The translations under genes and the position numbers were made by a program. Below, in pieces: positions 3,945-48,309 of a stretch of DNA of 64,000 nucleotides. The notes under the pieces were generated by a model. The model did no database searches and had not been told where the DNA came from. It saw nothing but the letters and a program-made list of their open reading frames with translations. Within the stretch, counting starts at the first letter, position 1. Every line of letters begins with the position of its first letter. The DNA comes from Ochromonas danica (lineage: Eukaryota > Sar > Chrysophyceae > Chromulinales > Chromulinaceae): contig VKHL01000020.1 in NCBI GenBank assembly GCA_015146655.1, forward strand, positions 124,001-188,000, read 5' to 3'.

Positions 3945-5695
3945 TTAGGTATTTAGAAAAGTCTTTTGGAGAGTGCTAAGCAGCTCTTTGCTATCAATAT
4001 GATTTGGAAAAATCTGCAACGCTTTGCTGACATAGTTATGAGCATCTTGGAAGTCTCCTGTTCGATAGGCAAGAAGAGCAAGATTATAGAATGGCTCGAA
4101 AACGTGTGGAGCGACTTCGCAACCAGCTGAAAGACAAGCCTTTGCAACATCATACTTTTGTCTGCGCATTTCAAGGACGGCAATATTATTCAACGCCTCC
4201 CCGTGAGAATTATCAATGGAAACAGCGACTTTGAATGCTTGGTATGCCAGACCAAGATCGCCTAAAGAGACACCAACATGGCCAATATTATACCAAACAT
4301 CCGCCATCTCTTCGTCGCCTGCTAAACTCAAAGCACGTTCAAAACAACCCAATGCCATATCATATTGTGAAGAATAGAAGCAGCAGAGTCCAATGTTATT
4401 CCAAACTTCTGTATTGTTCACACCCATTTGGAGTAATCGACGGTAGTACCGAATCGCCATCTCCGGCTACAAAACACTCACACCCACCATAAGAACCAGA
4501 CAAACACTCTCGCGTAACCAAGCAAAGCACTAACCTGATCAGAATAAAAGCAATGTGCGCCCAGACATGCGATGGACTCTATGTTGCTGGCATCCAGTGC
4601 CAACACGCGCTTGTAGTAGTTCATCGCAGCTTCCTGATCATTCAGCATGTCATACAATCTAGCCAAGCCAAGCTGCAGACGGGGTTCACATGTAAACTTA
4701 TCACTAGCTTCGATAAGTAACTCTAATGCAGTATTAGGCAAATCCAATCTTGTGTAAACATTGCATAGCTCGAGATAGGTGTTAACAATGGGTTGAATCT
4801 TCAATGCCGATCGAAATTGTTGTTCTGCTTCACGTAATAGCCCCAATTTGAAATAGCACTTCCCAAGGCGAGCTTTCCACCACCAATTCTTGAATTCATG
4901 CTCTCTTGTAGCCTCGGCACAGAGTTCCAAGGCCTTGCGTGGATTATGTTCCACGTAGAGCAAGTAGTCGACCAAAATCATGGCCAGCCCGGTGATCTTG
5001 GCATACTTCTTGATATTGAGCTTTTCGACATCAATCATAGAAGAGTTGTTATTGATCAAAGAGGCGGTACCTAATCGAATCTCTCTGCCTAATGTTGTCA
5101 TGGGACGACTGGACGTGCTGCCACGACTACTTTGTAATGCCGTACGAAGATCAGTTGAACCGGTAGTGGGCCGCGAACTAGATGGTCGAGCAAATCCAGT
5201 AACTATCCAGATAAAAGTTAAAAGTGATCAACAGGCACAACAATCAAAGCAAAGCAGATTTTTTTCCACTGCCTGAACAGTCTAGAGGCGCTCACCTGGT
5301 CGACCTGACTGACTCACAGGGCGAATAGCTTGGTCATAGCTTCCATTGGTTCGACTAGAAACTTGTGGAGTGCTAAGAGAAGTGCCAGGTCGCGGGACAG
5401 AGGCCATGGCATTCTCATCCATCATGACCTCGGCAATACCTTCCTCATCCATCTCAATGTCGTCTATGAAGTTCTTCTTGATCAACGCCTTGCACTTCGT
5501 CACCCAAGCTGCCTAATGTAGGTGAATGTGACACGTGGTATTTTGTCAAGTGGGTCAGGTCACCGCATGTCTCCGTGGGAGATAAGCTGTTACCTGATCG
5601 CCAGGATTAGCGGATAAGATCTCATTACAGATTTGAATACAATCGTCTAACTTCCCACGTCTTAGCTTACTTAACGCATGCCATAGAGGATCCAT
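3945..5695 (-). CDS. TTC8: TTC8/BBS8, tetratricopeptide subunit of the BBSome
   Basis: Four exons (5695-5594, 5512-5296, 5202-4535, 4466-3945) give about 502 aa, close to the animal protein (roughly 530 aa). Introns are 81, 93 and 68 bp, all GT-AG. Exon 1 starts MDPLWHALSKLRRGKLDDC. Exon 2 carries the family signature DEEGIAEVMMDENA followed by VPRPGTSL, then the SQSGRP repeats. Exon 3 carries GREIRLGTASL and HEFKNWWWKARLGKCYFKLG. Exon 4 carries RYYRRLLQMGV, NNIGLCCFYSSQYDMAL and DVWYNIGHVGVSLGDLGLAY. The second half is tandem TPR helices. In the BBSome this subunit helps form the coat that moves membrane cargo in and out of cilia, so its presence predicts a flagellated life stage. Alignment with animal TTC8 is strong over nearly the full length. 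Confidence 0.95.
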
Positions 5696-19677: not shown

Positions 19678-19875
19678 AGGTCGTTTATGAAGAAAAAGTC
19701 GATGGCTCAGCAGCTGGGTGTTTTTCAGGTTCAAAAATTGAAAAAGAGTCTTTGGTCTTCTTTCATTCATAGCTTGCTGTGAAAGCTACCAGTACTCGAG
19801 TAGTGCTAGTAGTAGATAGAGACTAAACTAGTGAGAAACAGTGTGTTTGTCTGTGGTGACTGTCTAATTGAGAAG

Positions 19876-20904
19876 ATGGAAGAAGATCACAGAGAGAGAG
19901 AAGAAGAAGAAGAAGAAGGAGAAGCTGAAGCACAGGATATAGAGAAGCTGAAAGAGACTGAAGCAGAAGAAGAAGTTGAAGTAGAAAATGAAGAGTTAGG
20001 AGGCAGCAGAGATGAGGAGATTGCTATAGAGGAACAACAACAAGAAGGAAGGGAAGGATTTTCAACAGAAGGTGAAGAAAACACTGACGAGGTAATAGAC
20101 ACTGTAGAAGAAGAGGTTCTAGTAGTAGAAGAGGGAAATGATCTAGAAGCTCATCCCTCAGTAGAAGAAGAAGAAGTCACAGTAAAGCGAGTCAAGACTG
20201 TTCCTAAGAAACCCACCAGCAAGTGGGTGCTCTTCCTCTCTGAACATCGAGCTCAATGCTCTCGTGAGAACCCTGACCTCTCCTTCGCTGCTATCACAAA
20301 GTTACTAGCTGAACAGTATAAGAACATCTCTGCTGATGAATCAGCACGACTTGATCAAATTGTTGCCAAGCAGAAGGAGACTTGGTTACAGTATCAAAGT
20401 GAACGAGCTCAAGATCCTCCACGGCAGGAGCAGGAAGGGCAAACTGAAGAAGAGAGAGGACAGTTGATTTTCCCCCTAGCTCGTGTCCGTAAAGTCGTGA
20501 AAATGGATCCAGATGTACGCAATGTGAGCAAAGAAGGTGCTGTTGCACTCACCAAGGCCTCGGAACTCTTTCTGGGCTACTTGGCTGAACGATCACGTGC
20601 TTATGCTAGTCTTCGTGGTGGTCGTTCTATTCAATTAGATGACCTTCTTCAAGCTATACACACCCAACAAGATCTCTCCTTCTTAACTGATGACTTTCCC
20701 AGACGAGCGAAGGTCAGTCACTCCGCCAATAAGCTCAGCTCAGAAAAGAAGACCCTTCCTTCAAGAGCTCACCAAGAACCGAACGGTGAGGATGGAGTGC
20801 GTGAAGCCAAAGCTGTGGAAGCAGTCGGACAAAACTTCTTCCTGCCCAGGCAAACTGGAAGTAAGCATAGACGTGAAGAAGATATTACAAACTCAACATC
20901 ATGA
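19876..20904 (+). CDS. HMG-box plus histone-fold (DPB3/CHRAC/NF-YC-like) protein
   Basis: Intronless as read, 342 aa from the first ATG in frame (MEEDHRERE). Residues 1-105 are extremely acidic. Residues about 110-175 look like an HMG box: PKKPTSKWVLFLSEHRAQC, NPDLSFAAITKLLAEQYKNI, then ARLDQIVAKQKETW. Residues about 196-275 read as a histone fold of the DPB3/POLE4/CHRAC15/NF-YC class: IFPLARVRKVVKMDPDVRNV, SKEGAVALTKASELFLGYLA, SIQLDDLLQAI and LSFLTDDF. A protein with both domains would bend DNA and pair with a histone-fold partner, for example in a chromatin remodeller or the polymerase epsilon complex. The last 60 residues are poorly structured, and the true 3' end could involve an intron I cannot place. 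Confidence 0.8.
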   Translation: MEEDHREREEEEEEGEAEAQDIEKLKETEAEEEVEVENEELGGSRDEEIAIEEQQQEGREGFSTEGEENTDEVIDTVEEEVLVVEEGNDLEAHPSVEEEEVTVKRVKTVPKKPTSKWVLFLSEHRAQCSRENPDLSFAAITKLLAEQYKNISADESARLDQIVAKQKETWLQYQSERAQDPPRQEQEGQTEEERGQLIFPLARVRKVVKMDPDVRNVSKEGAVALTKASELFLGYLAERSRAYASLRGGRSIQLDDLLQAIHTQQDLSFLTDDFPRRAKVSHSANKLSSEKKTLPSRAHQEPNGEDGVREAKAVEAVGQNFFLPRQTGSKHRREEDITNSTS

Positions 20905-28492: not shown

Positions 28493-31404
28493 TCAGTCAG
28501 CGGGTACAATATAGTTGTGACCTCGCAAGGGAAAAGTCGAGAGTGCACTCAAAACTAACCCTTTCTTGGCAGAGGAACCGTTCAATCGAGATGGCTGCTT
28601 CTCGAATATTGGAAGCGGAGCGGGGGTGTCGCTGTCAGCCGATTCCGCGACCAATCTGTCCCACCACTTTTCCTTTTGGCCATCTTCGTTGGTATGAGTC
28701 TCTCCGAGACCACTGGAGGAGAGACTGTAGGGCTTAACCGATGTAAGAAAGGTTTGAAAGTCGGGTGTTTGCTTCCATCGTTGATAACCATCTCCACGGA
28801 GAAGAAGGACTATCTCCTGCTTTGCCTGTCGAAAGACGGAGTATTCGATGGAGCGGTTATAAATGGCCGTTAATGCACTGGGTTGATTTCGAGCAAGAAT
28901 AATCTCAAAGATCACCTCGACTGTCGCTTTCAAAGACTGTTGTTGGAGCTTACCGACAAGTCGTTCAGTTGCTTTACGAATTCTCTCGGGGAGATTGAGC
29001 TCGCAGCGACTTTCGGTCGCGATATACAGAGAGAGAATCTCCATTGCTGCATCCTTTACTTCTTTGACCATCTTATTCAACTTGTCTTTTGTTTGCGTCA
29101 GTGAGATCAGTTCTTGCTGAGAGATTGTAGTATTGCCGCTAGTGTTTGTAGTCGCGCCTGATTGTTGGCTCATTGGTGCGAGAAGAGAGCGCAGATCGGC
29201 TGCCAATTGGTCTGTCTGCCTTGTTGATCTGACAGTGCTTTCACGAGATAGACCTAAAGAGTGATGGCTTGAGAGTTGACTGTTCATGCTAATGGAAAGA
29301 TTAGAACTCTCGCGAGTGAAAACCCGAGGACTGAGACTGTTTAGCCCGGTGGAAGGATCGGTCATGGTGCTGTCCTTACCGCTGTTCAACTGATTGCTCA
29401 ACTGACTGCTCGCTATTGAGTTCAAAGTTGTACTCGTACTGTGTTGTGTCTTCTGATTTTGATCCGTCAAGAAGTTCAAAAGCTTCTTCCAGTCCGAGAT
29501 AGGCAGAGAGTTGGTGAGATAGAGACGGAGTCGCTCTAACAGCTCCTCATACTGCAATACCGCATTGTAGAACAAGATATTCTCCTCCGAACGTTCCTTG
29601 CGTAAAAAGTCACGTAATAATCCATTCGCCGTGGGATGGGCCAGGACGTGTTCTAGGTCCACCTCTTGGCCAGCAAGGCGGATGCAGATCTCGGCCAGCT
29701 TCGTCTTGTTCTTCTCATAGACCTGGTCTAGGGAGCGCTTGCTGATACATGCAACTATAGTAGGTTCCATAGCAAGTGCTGTAGAGAAATAGGGCATGTC
29801 TGCGACCAGTGAAATCTCTCCGAAGAGCGATCCCGCAGAAAGATAGCGTACAAGAGAGGGCTCACGATTTGATTTGAGACTATTTCGACTCGACTTTGAA
29901 GAATGATGGGAGCCCGTTGGAGTGTCTGACGGATGGTTAGTTTCTTGCACCACTCCATGGATGAGTACATAGGAGTTGGTGGAGGTCTGTCCTTTCTTGA
30001 AGATAATCTCTCCAGCAGCAAAACCTCGGACATAGATCTTCGAGCAAAGAGCGGTTAGCATCCCATCTTCAATATCGCTGAAAACAATGGGGAAGAGTAA
30101 GAGATTGGTCAAAGCACTTCATGCAACAATAACAATAATACCTCAAAAGTGGAAGCGAATGGCGAATCTGACCCAGCAGCTGCATGTGATAATTGCGCCG
30201 AAGTATTCTTTTCAAAGATCCGTCTAATCGAAAGATTGCTTGCAGAGCATCTCGGGAAACATACGTAATCCATCCATTCTCCACGGCAACGATGGAGTCG
30301 GTCATTAGATTGTTCTTCTCTATGAAGCACTTCTCGAAGCCAAAGACTGTGCCTGCACCACAGCGATCCTCCCAGAAAGACTGTTGTTGTTGCTGCTGTT
30401 GCTGCTGTCCTTGCTGGCTACGTAACGAAAATGAAGCTGGTGAAGATGGGATTGAACTCATGGCAATGCTATTCCGATGTCTACAAAACATGCAAGCCCA
30501 TTGGCTCCATGAGAAGTCGAGTAGAGACAGGAAGGAGATGGAGAAGAAAGCGCAAACCTGTGAACTGATTTCCTGCCATAAGCAGCACTTGTTATGCAGT
30601 GCACAAGGTCCACAGTATCGGGAACAAAGACACAATTGCCTTTTAGTAGCAATCCTACCGAGCGATCTGTCATGACTGGGAGGAGAAGGTTTTCCTGGGA
30701 ATGAAGGCCAGAAAGAAGTTGTGGCAGTACTTTGCTAGAGTCATCGTGCATCTTTATCAACTGTCCCTTCTGGAAGTAAGTGAGCTTCATCGCACAAATC
30801 ATGACCTGCACCTGTTATTATCACAGAACAATCACCTCTCAGGCAACTGTTGTATCACTTGAACAAAATGATTGCCTACCTGTTCCAGAGAAAGTGAACG
30901 AAAAGCTGGCAGTTGAAGAAGGTCTTTCTCGAAAGAACTAGCAGCGCTTGAGCCGAACAAGTCGTCCATCTCTTTGAGATAACTTCTCGTGGACAAGAAG
31001 TTCCTCAACCCTTCGCGATCGACGAGGAGCGCTTTACCACTCTCATAATCAGAGCAACAGAGCTGGAAATGTATTTGATAATCGCCACACTCTACGGCCC
31101 CTGTTGATGAGCTGGTCAGGCCTGGCAGGAGCAACATGGTCTCTCCCGCCTGATAAGAAGTGATGGGCAGAGCCTGCTGCTGGTCAGAAGACGACATATA
31201 AGCAACAACTTCCCCCGAGAGCACGATAAGAAGGCAATGAGAGGGAAGAATTCTGAGTGAGATAGGCGTCATCGTCAGTAATTGTTGTTCTGTTCTGCAA
31301 ATCTTCCGAAAGGCGCAGAGGTCCGATGAGGACAGCATCTCTCCTAACCACACCTTCTTCAGAGAATCCTTCACTCTATCTCGACAGTAAAAGCAATTCC
31401 CCAT
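28493..31404 (-). CDS. N-myristoylation-type protein with three cNMP-binding-like domains and a split RGS domain (paralogue A)
   Basis: Four exons (31404-30880, 30811-30558, 30480-30142, 30077-28493) encode about 900 aa; introns are 68, 77 and 64 bp. The N-terminus MGNCFYC fits N-myristoylation plus palmitoylation. Three cyclic-nucleotide-binding-like barrels follow: about 30-165 (VLSGEVVAY, YQAGETMLLL), about 190-345 (FQKGQLIKM, GLLLKGNCVF, FGFEKCFIEKN) and about 375-500 (GFAAGEIIFKKGQ, SLFGEISLVADMP). An RGS domain starts at about 515 (DLEHVLAHPTANGLLRDFL, ERSEENILFYNAVLQYEELL) and resumes after a Ser/Thr/Gln-rich insert of roughly 120-150 residues (CELNLPERIRKATERL, FRQAKQEIVLLLRGDGYQRW). 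Expected role: a membrane-bound G-alpha regulator controlled by a ligand. The cassette Arg expected for cAMP is not visible. Architecture is seen; function is inferred. Confidence 0.85.
29480..29761. repeat. 282-bp tract identical to 33609-33890 (gene conversion tract, copy A)
   Basis: Read base by base, this stretch matches 33609-33890 without a difference, in the same orientation, offset 4129 bp. It covers the end of the third cNMP-like domain and the first half of the RGS domain. Flanking sequence in the two genes is strongly diverged. Confidence 0.95.
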
Positions 31405-32615
31405 GATGGTCTTGAATAAAGTGGAACTCAACTCTTGATAAATGTGTCGACGACATTCCACTGACTTATGGAAACTCACAGAGAGAGAGAGCTACTGGTT
31501 TAAACTCCAAATTTAAGATTTTCAAGAGATGAGTCAACGGAATTCCATCTCAACTCCACTGGCTCTTCCTCCTTCACTGCTTCGTTTGTTGCTGTTGTCG
31601 CCAGCACAGTCAACAGTGGGGTTAACGATGAAGAGGTTGAAGAGTTCCGTCCATTCCATGGCATTGGTATTGCAGAAATACAAACCACATCCAAGGACGA
31701 TGATGTTAAACATTGGATAATATGTATGGGTAACAACAGTGTAAGAGAGGTCTAGTGGTCTCGAGGAAGAAGCTTTATATTCAGAAGTTTTACAACTATT
31801 GATGCTATACCGTATTATCAACATATCATTACAAGTATATCATCATCATTATTATTATCATTATTATTATTGTTATTCTACAAGATGATAGGAGTTTGTG
31901 TGATTAGTAACAAACAACTATCAACCGAACAAAACCAAGGCATGGTATGGTACTATAAACTACAATGATCAGATCCCATCTCCTCCGTGCAGACATTTAG
32001 AAGAGTTTTGCTATTAGGCGCTAACATTAACATTGAACTAGCCGCTACTGGATACGAATGAACAAACAATACACATACATACAACACTCACTCTGAACCG
32101 CACCACAGCCCCAAATATCAGAAGCATAGCCTAGCATAGCATAACATGTAGTGTAACACAACACAGCATGGCAAGCACAGCATACGGTCAAACCAAGCGA
32201 CAACATCAGAGGCACTAGCTGGCCAGCATCTCCTTTGATCACTTATACAAGACCTCATCATCTAACGAAATGAAAAAACGCATCACAAGACGTGACGACG
32301 TACTGTAGGTAGAAAGATTAGTATGGGGCAGCAAAGCAGAAACGTATGCTTGCAAAAAATGAATCGAAAAGAATAGTGTGGTAGACTTTGTACAAAACAA
32401 CAACATAAATAGAGTAGAATAGCATAATAGAAGAAGAAGAAGAACAGCACAGTAGTATGGCGGCATTATGATATGTATGACAGCCATATACTGTTATACA
32501 AGAGGATCAACATGTTCTCTCACATGGGATCATTCTCTCAACAAGCATCAACTAACTGAACCTGTCTTATCCTGTCCAACCCTTAGCAACACTATGCTAT
32601 TCAATAACATCTAAA
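31405..32615. other. intergenic between the two cNMP-RGS paralogues
   Basis: 1.2 kb without a supported gene. It contains a (ATT/ATC)n low-complexity run at about 31836-31880 and an AGCATAGCATA-type short repeat near 32125-32180. Open stretches are short and none resembles the neighbouring genes. Confidence 0.45.
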
Positions 32616-35343
32616 TTATCGTGTAGGGCTGGGATGGATAGCACTGACAGAGCTAGCTAGAGGTGATCTCCAAGATAAGACAGCACGCAGAGAACGACCT
32701 CTACTTGGCACAGCAGGAGAATTTGATCCAGTACGAGAGCGACTAATAGCTTTTTGCAGTCGCGCTCCACTGCGATCGCTGAGATGAGAGAGCAGAGAGG
32801 AGCTGTTGTTACTGTTGCTGCTAATCCCACTCAACGCACTCTTGTTACTCTCAAAATTGGATTCATCTTCAGCCCTTTTCATACTGATGGAAACTATTGC
32901 TTGTGTGTGCAGCGTTTGTTCGCCAAGGAGATGATGTAGTTTCGTATGCAGTCGCTCCCAGGCAGGCATCTCATAGGGATCGGAGCTACTGATAAACTGC
33001 AAGAACTCGCGGCAGCGCTTCCATCGTAAGAAAGCATCTGTTCTGAGGAGACGGAAGATCTCTGCTTTCGCTGCACGGAAGACATTACGGCCCGGTACAA
33101 AGCGTGACTCCGCGGTACTATTGCTCGCTAGCATTTCACTGGAGAGGGTACGAGACAATGAGATACAACGCAATGAAGTGGAAGCATCCTCTTCAAGAGC
33201 AACAGGTTGGGCTTGTATCATAATGATTGATTCCAATGCCATCTCCAACAGTACAGCATCAGATTGCTGCATAAATCGCTGTTGAAGATTCACCGTATCG
33301 TTGCGAATGCGCTCAGGCAGATTAACTTCATGCGAGGCATTAGTCAGAATGAACGACTCCAAGATCGATCGACTATTGCTGCGAATCACTTGAAACATAT
33401 CTTTGAGACTGGTAGCTGCCTCATTCAATGCTAATTCCTTCGAATGTTTTTCATGTTCAGCTGCCTCTTCTTCTGCTTCTTCTTCTTTCATGCCATCAAT
33501 ACGCAATGAAGGAGAAGAAAACTCACTTCGCAGACTATCACACTTGTTGATCAATCTATCTGTTAGGTCTCCATCATCTTCCTCCTCTTCCCTTTGCATT
33601 CGAAGGAGAAGCTTCTTCCAGTCCGAGATAGGCAGAGAGTTGGTGAGATAGAGACGGAGTCGCTCTAACAGCTCCTCATACTGCAATACCGCATTGTAGA
33701 ACAAGATATTCTCCTCCGAACGTTCCTTGCGTAAAAAGTCACGTAATAATCCATTCGCCGTGGGATGGGCCAGGACGTGTTCTAGGTCCACCTCTTGGCC
33801 AGCAAGGCGGATGCAGATCTCGGCCAGCTTCGTCTTGTTCTTCTCATAGACCTGGTCTAGGGAGCGCTTGCTGATACATGCAACTATAGTGGACTCTATG
33901 AAAACCAATAGTAGGTTAGAGAATGATTCACAGGGTGGTAAGGTGTGAGATGTAAGGTGTACGTACCGAGAGCGATGGAAGACGAAGGATAGGTACCATC
34001 TGTCACCAAGGCAGTGGGTGCAAGAATTCCACCGCTAGCAATCTTCCGTCCTACTTCTCCATCTCGATTAGTTTGACGTTCTTGTATTGATCCTTTGACT
34101 ACAAGGAAGGCTTGGGTTGCGTGTTCACGTACTCGGAAAATCTCTTCACCAGCACCATAACCACAGAGTTCAACCTTCCCAGCTAAAGCACCTAATTCAT
34201 GATCATCCATATCGCGCAGAAGAGGACAGAAATAGCGCATATCAGATAGTAAAGAGTGGATGTAATTGCGACGTAAAGCTCGTTTGATGAGCGGCTCGGC
34301 ACGAAACACTTCACGCAATTCCTCTTTGGCTACTTGTGCAATCCATGTATCCTCCAAAGCTACAACTGCTAAGGAGACTACAGTATTCTTCTCCACAAAG
34401 CAATGTTCCAGGCCAAGGAAAGTGCCACTTTCACAGACTTTCTGCTCTGCCGCCTCCAAAACAGAGTTGAAAGATGTCTTTCCCAGTCGAATCGATTGAG
34501 CTGATACTGCAGCGACATGAGATTGAGAATACTTAGCAGCACTGGGATGTGTTAGAGACCTCAACAGAGAGGACTGATCAGTCACGCGGCCGCAACGGCC
34601 TTTCAATACAATACCAATATAACCTTCCTGCATGGTTGGATGATGTTTCCGATCTAACAAGCAACCAAATCCGATTAGAAGGAAAGACAATATGACAAGG
34701 CGAAGGAGAAGGAGAGCATACCAAGATAAGCAGTGGTCTTATCCAGTCGCTTGGGGTCTTCTTCCAACTTGACCACCTGACCTGCTTTAGCATGGCTTAC
34801 TTTCATTACAGTCATTAGCACTTGAATCTGCTCGATTGTTAACGATTGTAAAGAAGGCATAGCACGTAAAGATCGTTCCAATCGGTCAGTAAGGCAGAGA
34901 TCGTGCAAGACCTTCAAATGCGGTCGATTGGTAAGAAATTTTCTCATGTCTGAACGAGAAATACTCATCACTTGTGCACGATTTGATTTTGTAGCACGTA
35001 ATTGAAAAGTTAACTTCGTTTTCCCACATAGTAAACTCCCTCTTATGGTCGGGTCTTGTAGACCAGGCAGTAGGAAGATCGTGTCACCTGGACGATAGAC
35101 CGAAACAAGAATGAGTTGCACTTTGTCATTAGTGAGATAAACTGCTACTTCTCCAGATAGCACGAGGTAAAAGCATTGTTCAGTATCAATAGAGAGACTA
35201 TCAGCAGAAAACGCTGCTTTTTGACTTTCATAAGAACAATAATCAGGAAATTGGAAGATATCAATTTCTAATAAATAGGAACCTATCCAAGATTGCCGTA
35301 TGGCAGAATTGCTTAAGTCTTGTATAGACTGACAATTCCCCAT
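32616..35343 (-). CDS. N-myristoylation-type protein with cNMP-binding-like domains and a split RGS domain (paralogue B)
   Basis: Three exons (35343-34722, 34653-33967, 33895-32616) encode about 862 aa; introns are 68 and 71 bp. It opens MGNCQSIQ. Domain order matches paralogue A: barrel 1 (YLVLSGEVAVYL, YRPGDTIFLLPG), barrel 2 (AGQVVKLEED, GIVLKGRCGRV, FLGLEHCFVEKN), barrel 3 (GYGAGEEIFRVRE, AFLVVKGSIQ), then RGS part 1 identical to A and RGS part 2 (HEVNLPERIRNDTVNL, FRAAKAEIFRLLRTDAFLRW). The RGS insert here is Glu-rich and unrelated to the Ser/Thr insert of A. Barrel 3 has lost most of the phosphate cassette (SGGILAPTALV). Outside the identical tract the two proteins are clearly diverged, so the duplication is old. 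Head-to-tail arrangement with A. Confidence 0.85.
33609..33890. repeat. 282-bp tract identical to 29480-29761 (gene conversion tract, copy B)
   Basis: Same orientation as copy A, no difference seen. The upper edge (33890) lies 5 bp inside the exon 3 boundary (33895) of this gene; paralogue A has no intron at that point. Confidence 0.95.
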
Positions 35344-35934
35344 AGTGATAGCTAATAATCGAATCGCTTCTCGCTCTCTTCTTCCTCTCTCTTCTTCTTC
35401 TGTCTTCTTTCTTCCATGCGATGTTGTTGACAAGCAGCAGGACAGAGGCAGAGACGACCGCCCAGCACGGCGCATTTCACACGGTGGAGCAGCATCACAG
35501 AATGATTCCGTTGAGAAATGAAAAGTCGAATATCTCGCTTGTCAAAGTCTGAAAAGCGGAGATTTGTCGTGTCAAAGTCAAAACCGAAACTAACAAATTT
35601 TGTGTGTCAAACTTTGTTTTTCGATTGCAATTGGTTGAGTCGAACTGACAGACACTGCCATAGCATACTCTAGCAGTATGTGATGTCAAACTACATCTTC
35701 ATACTGATTTTAAACAAAGAATTCTCATTCCTTCCATAGTCAATAATTTAAGTTCATTTGATCCGACGACTGCCGGAATGGTCGCAAGGGCTAAACAACT
35801 TATTATAATACATGTAAGCAAAGTGCCCCGAAATAGAGAGAAAGTGTTGTAGTACAAGTAACGACTGAGAATAACGGACACAACAGTTCTCTAAGGGCGC
35901 TAAAAATGATAATCCACGATCATCATCCACTTAA
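35344..35934. other. paralogue B upstream region with repeated GTCAAAGTC-like words
   Basis: 591 bp. Between 35530 and 35625 the words GTCAAAGTCTGAAAAG, GTCAAAGTCAAAAC and GTCAAACTTTG occur in a row, followed by TTTTTCG. These may be upstream control elements. No gene. Confidence 0.35.
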
Positions 35935-36869
35935 TTAATAGAGATTATGCACTTCAGGGGGTTTAATCGCATTCAGCATATCCGATCCATAATGGAAACA
36001 TGCCATGGTCTCTTCTAAACAATCTTGACGCTCCTTTTCGCTCCAATGAACGGCAAGCTCATCAATTTTATGTTTTGTAGAGTCGATTAGTTGCTTGATA
36101 TCACTTTTCCATTCGTAAAACTTGAGCGCTTTCCCTTCCAACAGTGCATCAATGATACGCTTGCCAATCATACGACCTAATCAAAAACAATTACAGCACA
36201 TGAGTGGGAGTGAAGGAGAGGAACTCCTCAGAGTTGATAGATCCACTTACCTCCTGCAGAATGCGCGAAATAGTGGTTGTAGTAATGGCAGATGAACTTC
36301 GGTATGCTCTCCTCCGCCTTTTCATAGAGGAACGTAGCGTAGGCTTTAGCAAGTGGTCCTGCTTCATAACGGACCAACGTGTGGTCGTATTGAAGCAACC
36401 AGGCAATGTCCTGCTGCAAGGGTTCACTTCGCTCTAATCCCGTGTTCCGAAAAGCTTCCAATGCAGGATATCTCTGGATAATATCTTCGAATGCTTGATA
36501 GACGACTAAGGCATCAACGAGGAATTGCAAGTAATTCTGTCGAGTGGGTTGCCAGGCAGTGAAAGGCGTCTGGGCGGGCAGTTCTCCTTCTCTCGCCTGA
36601 TCGCGAGTGTGTAATTTCATCGCATAAGGTTTCATAACATCTTGAACAAAAGAAGGTATCTTTTTTTCACTACCAACGGTAGAGACTGCACTGTGTTGAA
36701 GTTTGGAAGATCTGACGCGGGAGACAGGACTGCAGGTGAAGCATCTTCCACGAGGAAAAGTGAAAGACTTGGTGGTGGTCTTTTGAAAAGCTTGTGAATC
36801 CTGCCAGAATAGCAAGAAGTAGGTGAGCAAGATACATAGTGGTTTGGATAAGGTCATGGCAGTCATCAT
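35935..36869 (-). CDS. plastid heme oxygenase, plant/cyanobacterial HO1 type
   Basis: Two exons (36869-36251, 36176-35935) encode about 286 aa; the 74-bp intron joins FAHSAGG to RMIGKRI. It cleaves heme to biliverdin IXalpha, feeding phytochrome or phycobilin chromophores and iron recycling. The catalytic core matches plant HY1: FVQDVMKPYAMKLHTRDQAR with the proximal His in KLHTRDQ, REGELP, YLQFLVDALVVYQAFE, FRNTGLERSE, FICHYYNHYFAHSAGG and the distal-helix glycines in GGRMIG. The C-terminus has HWSEKERQDCLEETMACF. The N-terminus is a signal peptide (PLCILLTYFLLFWQD) ending SQAF before a Ser/Thr/Arg-rich transit segment, which is the bipartite plastid signal of red-lineage complex plastids. 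Among the strongest calls here. Confidence 0.95.
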
Positions 36870-37434: not shown

Positions 37435-40137
37435 TCACACAGCTTGTGATTGCTTTAATAAGATATTCATGAGATCTTTCTCTTTCTTATTAGAAGGAGA
37501 TGAAGATGTTAAGAATTGCCAATAGAGATGAACAAGATCAGGTACATCTTGTCTTAATAACCAACAAAGAAATCTCTCTGGTGGAAGATGTTTCAAAGCT
37601 TGACGCAAAGTTGTCACACAGAATGGTGAAGTAGAAGAAGTAGAAGTGGTAGAAGAAGAAGATGCTGTCGTGGTTGTCTTCTTGTTCTTGTTGTTGTTGT
37701 TGTTCTGCTTCTCAGCACTCTTCTTCTGACGGTTGTGATGACTCTTCTCTCTTTGACTAACATTGTCACCACCATCTGTGTCAGTGAATGTGTCCACCAC
37801 TGTGACTGTGTCAGTGTCTACAACAGCATCAGTGTCAGTGTCAATAGTAGTGCGTATAGCCTTTCGTGGTACTGCCATCGCCTTATTAGGACAACCTTCC
37901 TTATAGGAATAAGACAATTCCTTCATACAAAGAGATTGAACCTCTCGCAAGTTCTGACGATATCGTTGAAGATCACGTTGAAATCTTGCTTTCCCATAAT
38001 AGACAATGAGACGATCCATGACTCGATTAGCTAGGAGATAGATGAAGGAATCATAAGGTTGATAGGCTTTGGTTAGGGAGAGGAAGGACTTGGATGAAGT
38101 AGTAGTGGTTGAACTTGAAGTTGAAGTAGCTCGTTTGACCTTCTGCGGGAGATACCACAGGTTCTCATCACGAAACTTTGTCATCATCGTCAACATGGCC
38201 ATCTTGTTGTTTACTTCCCTATCCTCCTCCTCCTTCTCCTCCTCGCTCACAGTGGTAGTGGTAGCAGGTAGCCGTTGTTGTTGTTGCTTGGCGGTAGTAG
38301 TGGTAGTCTTCTTCTTCTTCTTCTGGTTGTTGTTATTGTTATTATTAGGTAACACTCCCCCAGAGAGATGAACATGAGAGAATCGACTTGCAATAAGTGG
38401 AGCACCATGATGTCCCTCTGAGAAGAACTTGTTAGATGATGACAGAGTAGCAGTGGTAGTAGTAGTGGTAGTAGTAGCACTACCTAGTGAGGAGGAGGAG
38501 GAGGAGGATTGGTTACTGGTAGTAGTCATGGCCATAGCCTTGGTCCAAGAGGAATCATCCATAGGCCATTCCATCACCCATCTTAACAAAATCATACTTT
38601 CATCAAATCTTTCTGTTACTAAGACAAAGATCTCATAGGAAGCAATCTTTTTCACTAAGGTATTCCAGAATATTCCATGGAATGATGGATGGAATCTCCC
38701 TACTCCTGTCATTTCTTGTGAGAGAGCTTCTAATCCCCATTCTGGACCATACCATTCCTTATAGAAAGATAAAGATTTCTTATTATAAGGGTTGTTGTTA
38801 TTGTTATTATAATTGTCATAAGGAATAGCATGAGATTGTAAAGTAGTTATCCAATTATTAACTTTGACTTTCATATGTTGTTCTAAAGTATAAAACTCCC
38901 ATGCACTAGCAAATCGTTGACCAGGATGACGTGATGTAGTAACATGAAGATAAGGTGATTGAATCATAGTTAATAGATCTGGAGAGAGGTCATTATGGAA
39001 TAACCAACTATCATAAGGAGGTGGTAAGAGTTGACTACCTAGACTATTCTCGATATAATAACGATCACGTGAATGGATAGTTGATATGAGAGGATGACTA
39101 CTACCACTACCTGCACCACTACCTGCACCTCCTCGAAGACTACCTTCTTCACTACCGCTCTTAGTCTTAGTGGTAGTAGTACTAGTAGTAGTGTTCTTCT
39201 TATTGTTCATGGTCCAGATTCTACCCGAATCTACAGCACTAGGTAGAAAGCAATTCATTCCTTGGTTAAGACAGAGTTCACGCCATAGGATAGAGACGGT
39301 AGAACTGGACCCTGTCTTATGAGCTTTATTATAGAAGATCCTCTTCCCTCTCCTCCATCTCACTCCTCCTCCTCCACTACCACTACCACTACCACCACCA
39401 CTACTCTCAGTAGAGGAGGAGTAGGGACAGAGGTAGGGATGATTGAGATAGTGACGATGATTCATACAAGCTTCTTGTGCTTGTGAAGTGAGGAAGATCA
39501 TGTTTCTTTGGAAGGTATCCAAGTCTCCTAAGAGATGGTCTACCTCTTCTTCTTGTCTAGACACTGTCTGAGAGAAGAAGAACGAGAGGTTGAAGGGGTA
39601 GTAGCCTTGCTCTGACACAAGGGTAGTATAGTTTGAGGTAGAGTTTGAGGTAGAGTTTGAGGTAGAGTTTGAGGTAGAGGTAATAGTACTATCATCATCA
39701 TCATCGTCAATAGGCCCACTACCACTACCACTACCACTGCCACTACCTTTACCACTACCTCTACTATCCTTCTTCTTCTTCTTACCTCCTCCTCCTCCTA
39801 GTGTTAGTAGTACAGGTCCTCTTCTTCTTCTTCGTAATCTTTTCTCTTCTACCTTCCAAGGATCATCTTCTCCTATTTCAATTATTTTTATTATTTTCTT
39901 CAAGTCAGGATCTTCTTTTTCTTGACCATGATGATGATGATGGTTACTAAGGTGGTAGGAGGAGGAGGAGGAGGAGAGGGTATAAGGGACTAGTAGTAAT
40001 AAAGAGAGAGCAGAGAGAAGGTAGAGGATGCCTTTTAGTCTTCCTCTCTCCTCCACTACTACTACTACCAAGCCTCCTCCTACCACTGCTGCTACCTTCT
40101 TCTCATTATCATTATTATTATTATTATTCCTCACCAT
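37435..40137 (-). CDS. Gal3ST-like carbohydrate sulfotransferase, type II membrane protein with low-complexity inserts
   Basis: Intronless, 900 aa. A cytosolic Asn-rich start precedes a membrane anchor (GILYLLSALSLLLLVPYTLS). The recognisable core is FYNKAHKTGSSSTVSILWRE, the 5'-phosphosulfate-binding element of galactose-3-O-sulfotransferases, then PYLHVTTSRHPGQRFASAWE for the 3'-phosphate side, then ILVTERFDESMILLRW-like sequence (read FVLVTERFDESM). These enzymes move sulfate from PAPS to glycans in the Golgi, fitting the sulfated surface or wall polysaccharides of many algae. Homopolymer inserts of Asn, Thr, Ser, Gly, Lys and Gln almost double the length of the domain. Tandem Asn-Ser-Thr sequons sit in the stem region, about 39640-39690. 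C-terminal 150 residues unknown. Confidence 0.8.
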   Translation of the reverse strand: MVRNNNNNNDNEKKVAAVVGGGLVVVVVEERGRLKGILYLLSALSLLLLVPYTLSSSSSSYHLSNHHHHHGQEKEDPDLKKIIKIIEIGEDDPWKVEEKRLRRRRRGPVLLTLGGGGGKKKKKDSRGSGKGSGSGSGSGSGPIDDDDDDSTITSTSNSTSNSTSNSTSNYTTLVSEQGYYPFNLSFFFSQTVSRQEEEVDHLLGDLDTFQRNMIFLTSQAQEACMNHRHYLNHPYLCPYSSSTESSGGGSGSGSGGGGVRWRRGKRIFYNKAHKTGSSSTVSILWRELCLNQGMNCFLPSAVDSGRIWTMNNKKNTTTSTTTTKTKSGSEEGSLRGGAGSGAGSGSSHPLISTIHSRDRYYIENSLGSQLLPPPYDSWLFHNDLSPDLLTMIQSPYLHVTTSRHPGQRFASAWEFYTLEQHMKVKVNNWITTLQSHAIPYDNYNNNNNNPYNKKSLSFYKEWYGPEWGLEALSQEMTGVGRFHPSFHGIFWNTLVKKIASYEIFVLVTERFDESMILLRWVMEWPMDDSSWTKAMAMTTTSNQSSSSSSSLGSATTTTTTTTATLSSSNKFFSEGHHGAPLIASRFSHVHLSGGVLPNNNNNNNQKKKKKTTTTTAKQQQQRLPATTTTVSEEEKEEEDREVNNKMAMLTMMTKFRDENLWYLPQKVKRATSTSSSTTTTSSKSFLSLTKAYQPYDSFIYLLANRVMDRLIVYYGKARFQRDLQRYRQNLREVQSLCMKELSYSYKEGCPNKAMAVPRKAIRTTIDTDTDAVVDTDTVTVVDTFTDTDGGDNVSQREKSHHNRQKKSAEKQNNNNNKNKKTTTTASSSSTTSTSSTSPFCVTTLRQALKHLPPERFLCWLLRQDVPDLVHLYWQFLTSSSPSNKKEKDLMNILLKQSQAV

Positions 40138-45662: not shown

Positions 45663-48200
45663 TCACATACCATGAGGGAGCTTGACAAAGAAGTCATTGT
45701 AATCATAACTTCCTAATACTTCCTTGTTGGGAAGTAGCAATGGATTGATACCAGATTGATACATGGCCACAGGGAAGGAAACCTGATCTTGGGTTGTCCA
45801 AGTTAGAACATGATTCATCCAATTTTCCATTGCTGACAGAGCCTGCTCTGATCGCATATCCACTGCCACAAAGCAGGTACAAGCTAAGCGACCGTAGGGA
45901 TCAGGGTAGTGCAATTCTCTGATGTAGTGGTCTAGCTGTGCTTCAACATTCTGGTAAGGCTGGGCATGGCCTGCCCAGTGGGTCACAGTATACTTCCCAC
46001 TCATTATCGAGGCTGCCACCTCTTCACTAAGATTGCTATTGCTCATATGCTTCCATGTGATTACTCTAACCTCAGAATCCAATAGCATGCGCTGCACTAT
46101 CTCAGCCGTCCGCATGTTTCGCAACTGCAGCGTGCCATCCATCCAAATGACCACGTCGTAATCCTGTAGATGAGGAATGCGTCGAAATGATAGCTTGTAG
46201 AACTTTGCGATGTTGAAAGGATGATTGTTACGATCATAGCGATTTACCATCTCCTCCTCGTCTCTTCCCAGGAAGTGAGTTAGAAGAAGGAGATGATAAG
46301 GGGTACTATCCAGAATCCATCCAGGAGCATTATGCGCCAACTCTTCGGGATGGTCAGTAAAGCAATAGAAATCAACTGCTATCGACTGCCGTACAATGGG
46401 TTTACAGGAAGACTCGTAGCCACCATAGATTGCTGTCACCACCGCCACACGAGTTGCTTGGGGAGTAGACGAAGAGAAGAGAGGGAGAGGATAGATTACA
46501 ATTGCTTCTCGTGCTAGCTCTTGATTTGCAAAAGTCAACAAAGGAAGGGGTAGGGTGGCCAGGTAGTCATCCTGTAGTCCAAGAAGATGTTTCACTTCCT
46601 CGGTGGTGCGAACAACTCGTTCTCGTTCACAATGTTGAGTTGACAACCTTTCCATCTCCCCATCTGATTGCTGGTCTGATAGGAGTATGTCAATGTCAAG
46701 GGAATAGGCTTGATAGTATTCATACAGTGCGTCACCCAATTGTACCTTGTCTCCACACTCTGCAGTTGCAGTGATCGGATTATTTGAATAGTAGCGAGCA
46801 TTGAGATGATCCTGGAAGATCTTGCGTATCTTGGGCAGATGCTCATGGTATGCCTCAGCTCGATCAGTGAGATGCAGGAGGAGGTACTGCTCGAGGGATG
46901 AGACCTCCACAGCCTCAGGATGATAGCAACCGAGACTATTCAAACCACGATAGAGATCGTGAAGAAGGAAGTTGTTCAAGCTGAGGTGGGCATCAGGTAG
47001 AAACAGACGCAAAGGAGTGGTTAGTTTGTCATTATCCTTCGAGGAGCGCATGAGAAGGTCGAAATGGCTGCGGTGCAAGAGAGGACTGCGAGGGTAGCGC
47101 AACAACCTGGACACATCGAAATAGCCCTCGTCGCCTTCTCCTCCTCCTCCGTCATCTCCTATGAACACTCCTTTCTCATCCTCCTTTGGCAAATGATCGT
47201 CATCATCATGCATCCAACTGCAAAGTTGCAAAGAGAGGCCAAAGTCATTCTCTTCAGTCAAGACTGACCTGCGAGCCACCAAGAATATGGCCTCGGATAT
47301 CCACGACCCACCAATGGGGATGACGTCGTTGTCTACTAGAAGGTAGAAGTCTGTTGGACTAGAGTCACTACGGATGTAACTACGCCATGCAAGTTCTTCT
47401 CGTGCATCATAGTACCCTGTGCTTCTCACCACTAATCCCTCACACTTCAATCGAATAGGAAGAGATGCTTGAGGGTCTACCTGGAGAGGGTGAATAAGAT
47501 ACTCTTGAATTGTCTCACAAAAGGAAGAGAGCTCTTCTTCTAGCTGTGGTCCGCTACCCGCTAGTCCGAACACCACCTCCACCCCCAGAAGATAGCACTG
47601 TGCTTCCTCCAAGCCTTCTCTGAGGGAGGGCAGAAGGTGGTTGACTAGTTGTCGGCGATAGTCAGTGAGACATCCTGGGCGATGACAGCTCTCAGATGGA
47701 GTGAGGATGAGTGTGAGGGTCCACTGTGCGATGGAACTCTCAACATCTTGCAATGATATCAACACTCCTAGGGTAGGCTTCAAGCCACTGCTATCCCTCC
47801 TCAAAGAGTCCTCCTCCTCCTGCTCCTGCAACAAGTTATCATATGAATTGTTCATAATGACATTGTGACCAGCGATAATGGTCGCTCTCAGACCTAAACT
47901 TAACGCGACTCGTTCGTTGGTCTTGAGCAGTGGATCCAACTCCTCATAGAGCCACAAAAGATGAGGAAGCTGACATGGATGGCGCAAAGAGCACAACAAT
48001 GTCTTAGCAAGGAGGAAGAAGGGGCGGAAGTGTTTCAGTGAGGAGGTGGAGAAGAGAACAGGGTTGGTCAGCAGCAGCCCTTCACGCTCTAGCCAGCACC
48101 ATCGCTCATCCTCGATCTTTGTACATTTAACAATGTTGTATGCTGTTAGCTGGACTAAATGAGTAATGAAGATGAGAAATAACAGCGAGATGGAGAGCAT
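45663..48200 (-). CDS. TOD1/MUCI70-type glycosyltransferase (DUF616) with an N-terminal GT-A-like region
   Basis: Intronless, 845 aa, starting with a signal or anchor (MLSISLLFLIFITHLVQL). The C-terminal 280 residues match the TOD1/MUCI70 family: RVAVVTAIYGGYE, SIAVDFYCFTDHPEE, GWILDSTPYH, FNIAKFYKLSFRRIP, YDVVIWMDGTLQLR, VITWKHMSNSNLSEE and TQDQVSFPVAMY. Plant members act on mucilage pectin or related wall glycans in the Golgi. The N-terminal 450 residues contain a second transferase-like region with a DxD-type element (FYLLVDNDVIPIGGSW), making this a likely two-domain enzyme. Donor and acceptor are unknown. It lies head-to-tail with another Golgi-type gene 110 bp upstream. Confidence 0.87.
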   Translation of the reverse strand: MLSISLLFLIFITHLVQLTAYNIVKCTKIEDERWCWLEREGLLLTNPVLFSTSSLKHFRPFFLLAKTLLCSLRHPCQLPHLLWLYEELDPLLKTNERVALSLGLRATIIAGHNVIMNNSYDNLLQEQEEEDSLRRDSSGLKPTLGVLISLQDVESSIAQWTLTLILTPSESCHRPGCLTDYRRQLVNHLLPSLREGLEEAQCYLLGVEVVFGLAGSGPQLEEELSSFCETIQEYLIHPLQVDPQASLPIRLKCEGLVVRSTGYYDAREELAWRSYIRSDSSPTDFYLLVDNDVIPIGGSWISEAIFLVARRSVLTEENDFGLSLQLCSWMHDDDDHLPKEDEKGVFIGDDGGGGEGDEGYFDVSRLLRYPRSPLLHRSHFDLLMRSSKDNDKLTTPLRLFLPDAHLSLNNFLLHDLYRGLNSLGCYHPEAVEVSSLEQYLLLHLTDRAEAYHEHLPKIRKIFQDHLNARYYSNNPITATAECGDKVQLGDALYEYYQAYSLDIDILLSDQQSDGEMERLSTQHCERERVVRTTEEVKHLLGLQDDYLATLPLPLLTFANQELAREAIVIYPLPLFSSSTPQATRVAVVTAIYGGYESSCKPIVRQSIAVDFYCFTDHPEELAHNAPGWILDSTPYHLLLLTHFLGRDEEEMVNRYDRNNHPFNIAKFYKLSFRRIPHLQDYDVVIWMDGTLQLRNMRTAEIVQRMLLDSEVRVITWKHMSNSNLSEEVAASIMSGKYTVTHWAGHAQPYQNVEAQLDHYIRELHYPDPYGRLACTCFVAVDMRSEQALSAMENWMNHVLTWTTQDQVSFPVAMYQSGINPLLLPNKEVLGSYDYNDFFVKLPHGM

Positions 48201-48309
48201 AACGCTAATCTTTGAACCATCTCAAGCAACTCTGGAACTGCCTCCAATTATGACGATGCGTGGGGTACAAACCAAAACAACGCAGTCGAAGTCTACGAAT
48301 AGCTTGAGA

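Follow-up and report, generated by a model that had tools for sequence, protein, structure and literature searches.

RGS and CNB domains are each widespread. Whether the two can be combined in a single protein, and what such a protein would do, is the question raised by positions 28493-35343 of the 64-kb stretch of DNA analyzed here (the window). There the initial annotation had described two tandem genes for MGNC-starting proteins with three CNB-like barrels followed by an RGS domain, and had proposed that these proteins couple a small-molecule signal directly to G-protein shut-off at the membrane. A chain holding both domains would put a sensor-type fold directly onto a G-protein off switch.

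Gene models and tandem arrangement

The region contains, on the minus strand, two tandem genes of the same orientation, A and B. Their splice models are predictions in which GT-AG sites were read against the alignment of the two paralogs; together with the Pfam matches they give the following features:

28493-31404, minus strand: gene A, 900 aa, four coding exons (predicted at 31404-30880, 30811-30558, 30480-30142 and 30077-28493); domain order MGNC, CNB1-like, CNB2-like, CNB3, RGS, tail
31393-31404, minus strand: MGNC start of A, from splice model and sequence
32616-35343, minus strand: gene B, 862 aa, three coding exons (predicted at 35343-34722, 34653-33967 and 33895-32616); domain order that of gene A
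35332-35343, minus strand: MGNC start of B, from splice model and sequence

The proteins are 41.6% identical over 574 aligned columns, an identical tract described below being counted in. The five introns of the pair measure 64-77 bp, begin with GT and end with AG, and none of the five has a length divisible by three; they interrupt A at codons 175, 260 and 373 and B at codons 208 and 437. As read from the alignment, none of the five intron positions (0/5) is common to both genes. A pseudogene reading was rejected in view of the long open frames and the plausible GT-AG introns. The intron-bearing genes indicate that the host genome is eukaryotic.

In A, the MGNC codons at 31404 begin with the first ATG downstream of the last in-frame stop. 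In B they begin at 35343, and a further in-frame ATG lies upstream at 35475, which makes this start less certain than that of A; MGNC is preferred since it is present in both paralogs. The tandem pair and its MGNC starts were thus recovered at the positions initially annotated, with this reservation for B. The MGNC start may permit G2 to be myristoylated and C4 to be palmitoylated, and on this reading both A and B would be anchored to the membrane.

CNB and RGS domains in one chain

Both families were recognized above their curated Pfam cut-offs in the full chain of each gene, with E-values for cNMP_binding (PF00027) and RGS (PF00615) of 8e-19 and 4.7e-14 in A and of 1.2e-19 and 8.5e-11 in B; the combination announced by the initial annotation is therefore significant within the same chain in both cases. 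The last exon of A taken alone, an unbroken frame of 527 residues, matches RGS at 9.6e-15 and cNMP_binding at 2.1e-13. Since the third barrel (CNB3) and the RGS domain of A lie within one exon, their fusion is not a gene-model error; the possibility that these regions belong to separate genes fails for A, and a wrong joining of two genes was rejected on the same ground. In B an intron falls within CNB3 and the one-exon argument reaches this gene by homology only; here the Pfam matches of CNB3 and RGS are only 17 residues apart. Structures predicted from two-row alignments had a mean pLDDT of 34.9 for the CNB3-RGS part of A and of 30.3 for CNB1 of B, values too low to inform on either fold.

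GRK-like proteins occur in oomycetes and brown algae, according to the available part of PMC3307776. No kinase domain was found by Pfam in the chain of A or B up to an E-value of 10, and a GRK-like insertion of a kinase into the RGS domain was rejected for this reason.

The RGS domain and its predicted G-alpha contacts

In a piece search, the chains of A and B were cut into eight pieces and each piece was run against Pfam. The RGS features are:

28745-29659, minus strand: RGS domain of A, about aa 513-817; PF00615 at 1.4e-15 in the piece search
about 29087-29476, minus strand: insert in the RGS domain of A, about 130 aa, rich in Ser/Thr/Leu/Gln
32985-33785, minus strand: RGS domain of B, about aa 474-740, with two inserts; PF00615 at 1.6e-12 in the piece search

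The full-chain PF00615 scores (53.2 bits in A, 42.7 bits in B) exceed the cut-off of 23.9 bits, which bears out the annotated RGS domain in both proteins, less strongly in B. Because of the inserts, the domain is matched piecewise in either gene: two stretches in the exon of A and one in that of B pass 0.001 individually, and the sole passing stretch of B (aa 474-512) belongs to the tract of exact identity between the two genes. The domain is complete in A and less strongly supported in B, where Pfam lends it little weight beyond the tract held in common with A.

Comparison with solved structures was made with a two-row profile that combined A and B and from which the inserts had been removed by hand beforehand. 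At E<=0.001 this trimmed profile retrieved 35 different PDB sequences, of which 33 carry an RGS name and the remaining two are GAIP and CG5036; the top match was RGS17 (7e-12), covering profile positions 11-136 of 139, and after removal of the inserts the domains are colinear with RGS17, GAIP and RGS12. The untrimmed profile found RGS12 first at 1.1e-5, and the untrimmed single chains gave weak matches to RGS12 (0.0035 for A, 0.0031 for B).

The G-alpha contact set, which we take from RGS4 to comprise the E-E-N of SEEN, Asn, Leu, Asp, Arg and Ser, bears on whether the domains would be active. One alternative is that the RGS fold serves as a scaffold, kept for binding while its GAP use has been lost or become secondary. 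The large inserts agree with such a role, as does the Ser contact, which is replaced by Gly803 in A and Ala724 in B, whereas the remaining contacts are kept in A and B (the E-E-N of the SEEN motif, N734/N628, L798/L719, D802/D723 and R806/R727), and we regard the scaffold reading as unlikely. The conservation of these residues makes GAP activity of the predicted domains plausible.

The CNB barrels: one clear, two tentative

The barrels precede the RGS domain in both proteins:

30955-31347 (approximate), minus strand: CNB1-like region of A, placed by alignment with B; no PF00027 match of its own in the piece search against Pfam
34894-35286 (approximate), minus strand: CNB1-like region of B; PF00027 at 6e-5, below the cut-off
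30142-30909, minus strand: CNB2-like region of A, containing a run of Gln and interrupted by two introns; PF00027 at 0.03, below the cut-off
34226-34869, minus strand: CNB2-like region of B, with an intron inside; PF00027 at 0.0035, below the cut-off
29708-30028, minus strand: CNB3 of A, aa 390-496; PF00027 at 9.2e-15
33837-34159, minus strand: CNB3 of B, aa 373-456, split by an intron; PF00027 at 2.3e-11

Of the three barrels annotated initially, CNB3 stands well above the PF00027 cut-off of 27.5 bits in both proteins (54.8 bits in A, 43.9 bits in B), whereas all four pieces of CNB1 and CNB2 fall under it, the best being CNB1 of B with 23.4 bits (6e-5). Profiles of CNB1 and CNB2 retrieved no CNB chain from the PDB up to an E-value of 10. 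The profile comparison of CNB1 with CNB3 yielded nothing of weight (13 columns), and the other two barrel-barrel matches are uninformative, as they reflect overlap between the cut pieces. CNB3 can be considered secure, and the position and weak scores of CNB1 and CNB2 are suggestive of further barrels.

Ligand signatures of CNB3

When PKG and further CNB entries served as alignment references for the cassette residues, the classical cAMP/cGMP pair of Glu and Arg proved incomplete in CNB3 of both A and B. The Arg position is occupied by Tyr in both (Y469 in A, Y429 in B), and the Glu position is kept in A (E460, within a retained FGE) and is P420 in B. Since both copies carry Tyr in place of the Arg that would grip the phosphate, a classical cAMP/cGMP response of CNB3 has probably been lost.

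These substitutions, the Arg change in both proteins and the loss of Glu in B, weigh against a cyclic-nucleotide-gated GAP, that is, a PKG-like front in which cAMP or cGMP on a CNB barrel switches an RGS domain that has replaced the kinase. Such gating would agree with the Glu retained in A and with the CNB3 profile, whose best PDB match is cGMP-dependent protein kinase 2 (1.7e-5), followed by four further PKG sequences at 6e-5 to 2e-4; on balance we consider it rather improbable. The available part of a study of the Plasmodium protein CBP-O (PMC12422582) names Glu and Arg as the residues that mediate CNB binding, and its judgment, made from sequence and without an assay, that a CBP-O barrel devoid of both is non-binding also counts against cyclic-nucleotide gating. 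In the same part of the study, one barrel having both residues failed to bind in a pull-down. By this comparison of barrels, the cassette residues alone settle binding in neither direction.

The CNB2-like region of A has E309 opposite the cassette Glu of a PKG when a one-residue gap is allowed, and Met takes the Arg position; the alignment behind both assignments is weak (4.7 bits). With the Glu of CNB3 kept and that of CNB2 perhaps so, the barrels of A may bind some ligand, weakly or of another kind.

Sensing of a different small molecule, for example a nucleoside, has a precedent in trypanosomatid PKA regulatory subunits, which bind nucleosides and in which, in the available part of PMC10959531, polar residues (T318, N442) replace the cassette Arg, as Tyr does here. 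The trypanosomatid subunits also carry Glu at the position of A202 of PKA RI-alpha, a position that the alignment assigns to Ser462 of A and Ala422 of B. A trypanosomatid-type nucleoside site was rejected on this account, only the loss of Arg matching its signature, and the broader small-molecule reading seems to us to have little probability. CNB3 thus fits neither known ligand signature in full. As for the coupling of a small molecule to G-protein shut-off, the CNB-RGS architecture that it calls for stands, whereas a cyclic nucleotide as the signal is weakened by the altered cassettes.

An identical tract across the CNB3-RGS junction

The two genes share one stretch of perfect identity:

29480-29761, minus strand: tract copy in A, 282 bp, 100% identical to 33609-33890
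33609-33890, minus strand: tract copy in B, 282 bp, starting 5 bp inside exon 3

The tract runs from the end of CNB3 across the junction into the beginning of RGS, and so marks this joint as the part that A and B hold exactly in common. Within it, codons are equal at 93/93 positions (Met and Trp excluded) and fourfold sites at 41/41. Outside it, equal nucleotides occupy 29 of 88 fourfold sites (33%), identical amino acids use the same codon in 81 of 217 cases, and no exact match between A and B exceeds 13 bp ahead of the tract or 11 bp beyond it. GC3 reaches 0.65 within the tract, compared with 0.50 for the remainder of A and 0.35-0.42 for that of B; a tract rich in GC fits biased gene conversion. 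The simplest reading is that the tract probably results from recent gene conversion between old duplicates.

An assembly error in place of gene conversion, a matter independent of the functional readings, could produce sharp tract edges and perfect identity amid very diverged paralogs. It is opposed by the flanks, which are particular to each copy, the two lying about 3.8 kb apart, and by the colinear fit of the tract to the RGS match in both genes; we hold it to be very unlikely.

Proposed mechanism

With moderate confidence, these domain assignments are read as describing a GAP for G-alpha that is tethered to the membrane and carries a degenerate CNB front end. Through their MGNC start, A and B would be held at the membrane, where the RGS domain, judging from its fold and the contacts kept, would bind active G-alpha and speed GTP hydrolysis. 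The front end would be an array of CNB-like barrels whose clear member, CNB3, adjoins the RGS domain. The Tyr-type CNB3, probably without a classical cAMP/cGMP response, would act as a docking, dimerizing or otherwise-liganded module, and its CNB C-terminal helix may set the position or the access of the RGS domain. A and B would be old duplicates whose sequences at the CNB3-RGS junction were recently equalized, gene conversion being the probable cause.

A more specific version, to which we give only a modest probability, is a GAP gated by a CNB that answers to something other than a cyclic nucleotide: a ligand or partner of the Tyr cassette would toggle G-alpha shut-off at the membrane, the C-terminal helix of CNB3 would continue straight into RGS, and conversion would keep this joint, together with the first G-alpha contact loop, free of differences between two otherwise diverged copies. 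The Tyr common to both altered cassettes poses a clear question, namely whether CNB3 has any ligand and whether such a ligand affects the GAP rate.

Genomic surroundings and relatives

Among 30 other open frames of the window that were scanned, Pfam gave no match to a G-alpha, a receptor, a cyclase or a kinase; one of them is an Arf-family GTPase. Several further frames were noted:

3948-5227, minus strand: TPR frames (Pfam)
19816-20901, plus strand: single frame combining an HMG box with a histone fold of the CBF/NF-Y type, both above the Pfam cut-offs
36228-36869, minus strand: heme oxygenase (PF01126, 3.5e-6); N-terminus hydrophobic, AF motif present
37435-40137, minus strand: 900-aa frame with many low-complexity runs; Gal-3-O-sulfotransferase at 1.3e-8, with no single stretch below 0.001
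45666-48221, minus strand: 852-codon frame with a TOD1/MUCI70 glycosyltransferase-like domain, 2.3e-6

The AF motif of the heme oxygenase frame resembles the plastid-targeting signals of algae whose plastids are of secondary red origin, and the frame is compatible with an alga bearing such a plastid. The stramenopile origin implied by the initial annotation would be possible. The start of the TPR frames at 3948-5227 resembles BBS8/TTC8, a similarity that would suggest an organism with cilia.

Relatives of A and B were sought with peptide patterns and tblastn, and none was found in three scans of viral contigs (27, 139 and 23 stretches) or among 88 stretches of bacterial and archaeal genome contigs; these pattern scans used two to six peptide patterns each and are insensitive. 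In plasmids, tblastn gave no match to A or B. No paper combining an RGS domain with a cyclic nucleotide-binding (cNMP-binding) domain was found among the open-access texts searched; the novelty of the CNB-RGS architecture rests on these texts, and the architecture may have been published or entered in a protein database before.

Comparison with known systems

The RGS domains of RGS17, GAIP and RGS12 (PF00615) are like those of A and B, being colinear with them once the inserts are left aside and sharing G-alpha contact residues; the domains described here differ in their large inserts and in their place behind CNB-like barrels. The closest solved matches of CNB3 are PKGs (5bv6 of PKG2, 5dyk and others), which likewise place several CNBs before an output domain, and some cGMP-dependent protein kinases have an MG-C acylated start. 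In contrast to PKGs, the output domain of A and B is RGS, without a kinase, and the cassette Arg is replaced. D-AKAP2/AKAP10 links RGS domains with the regulatory (CNB) branch of PKA, and does so with a helix that binds the regulatory subunit; it lacks a CNB itself.

Plasmodium CBP-O has, in the parts described in PMC12422582, several CNBs, some of them degenerate, and an insertion between barrel strands, as is the case here; it differs in that one barrel binds cAMP and cGMP and in that those parts include no RGS domain. Fusion of RGS to a signaling module is known from EhRGS-RhoGEF and from the 7TM-RGS proteins of protists and plants (PMC9283941, available part). In these proteins the partner of the RGS domain is a RhoGEF or a 7TM receptor, whereas in A and B it is an array of CNB-like barrels.
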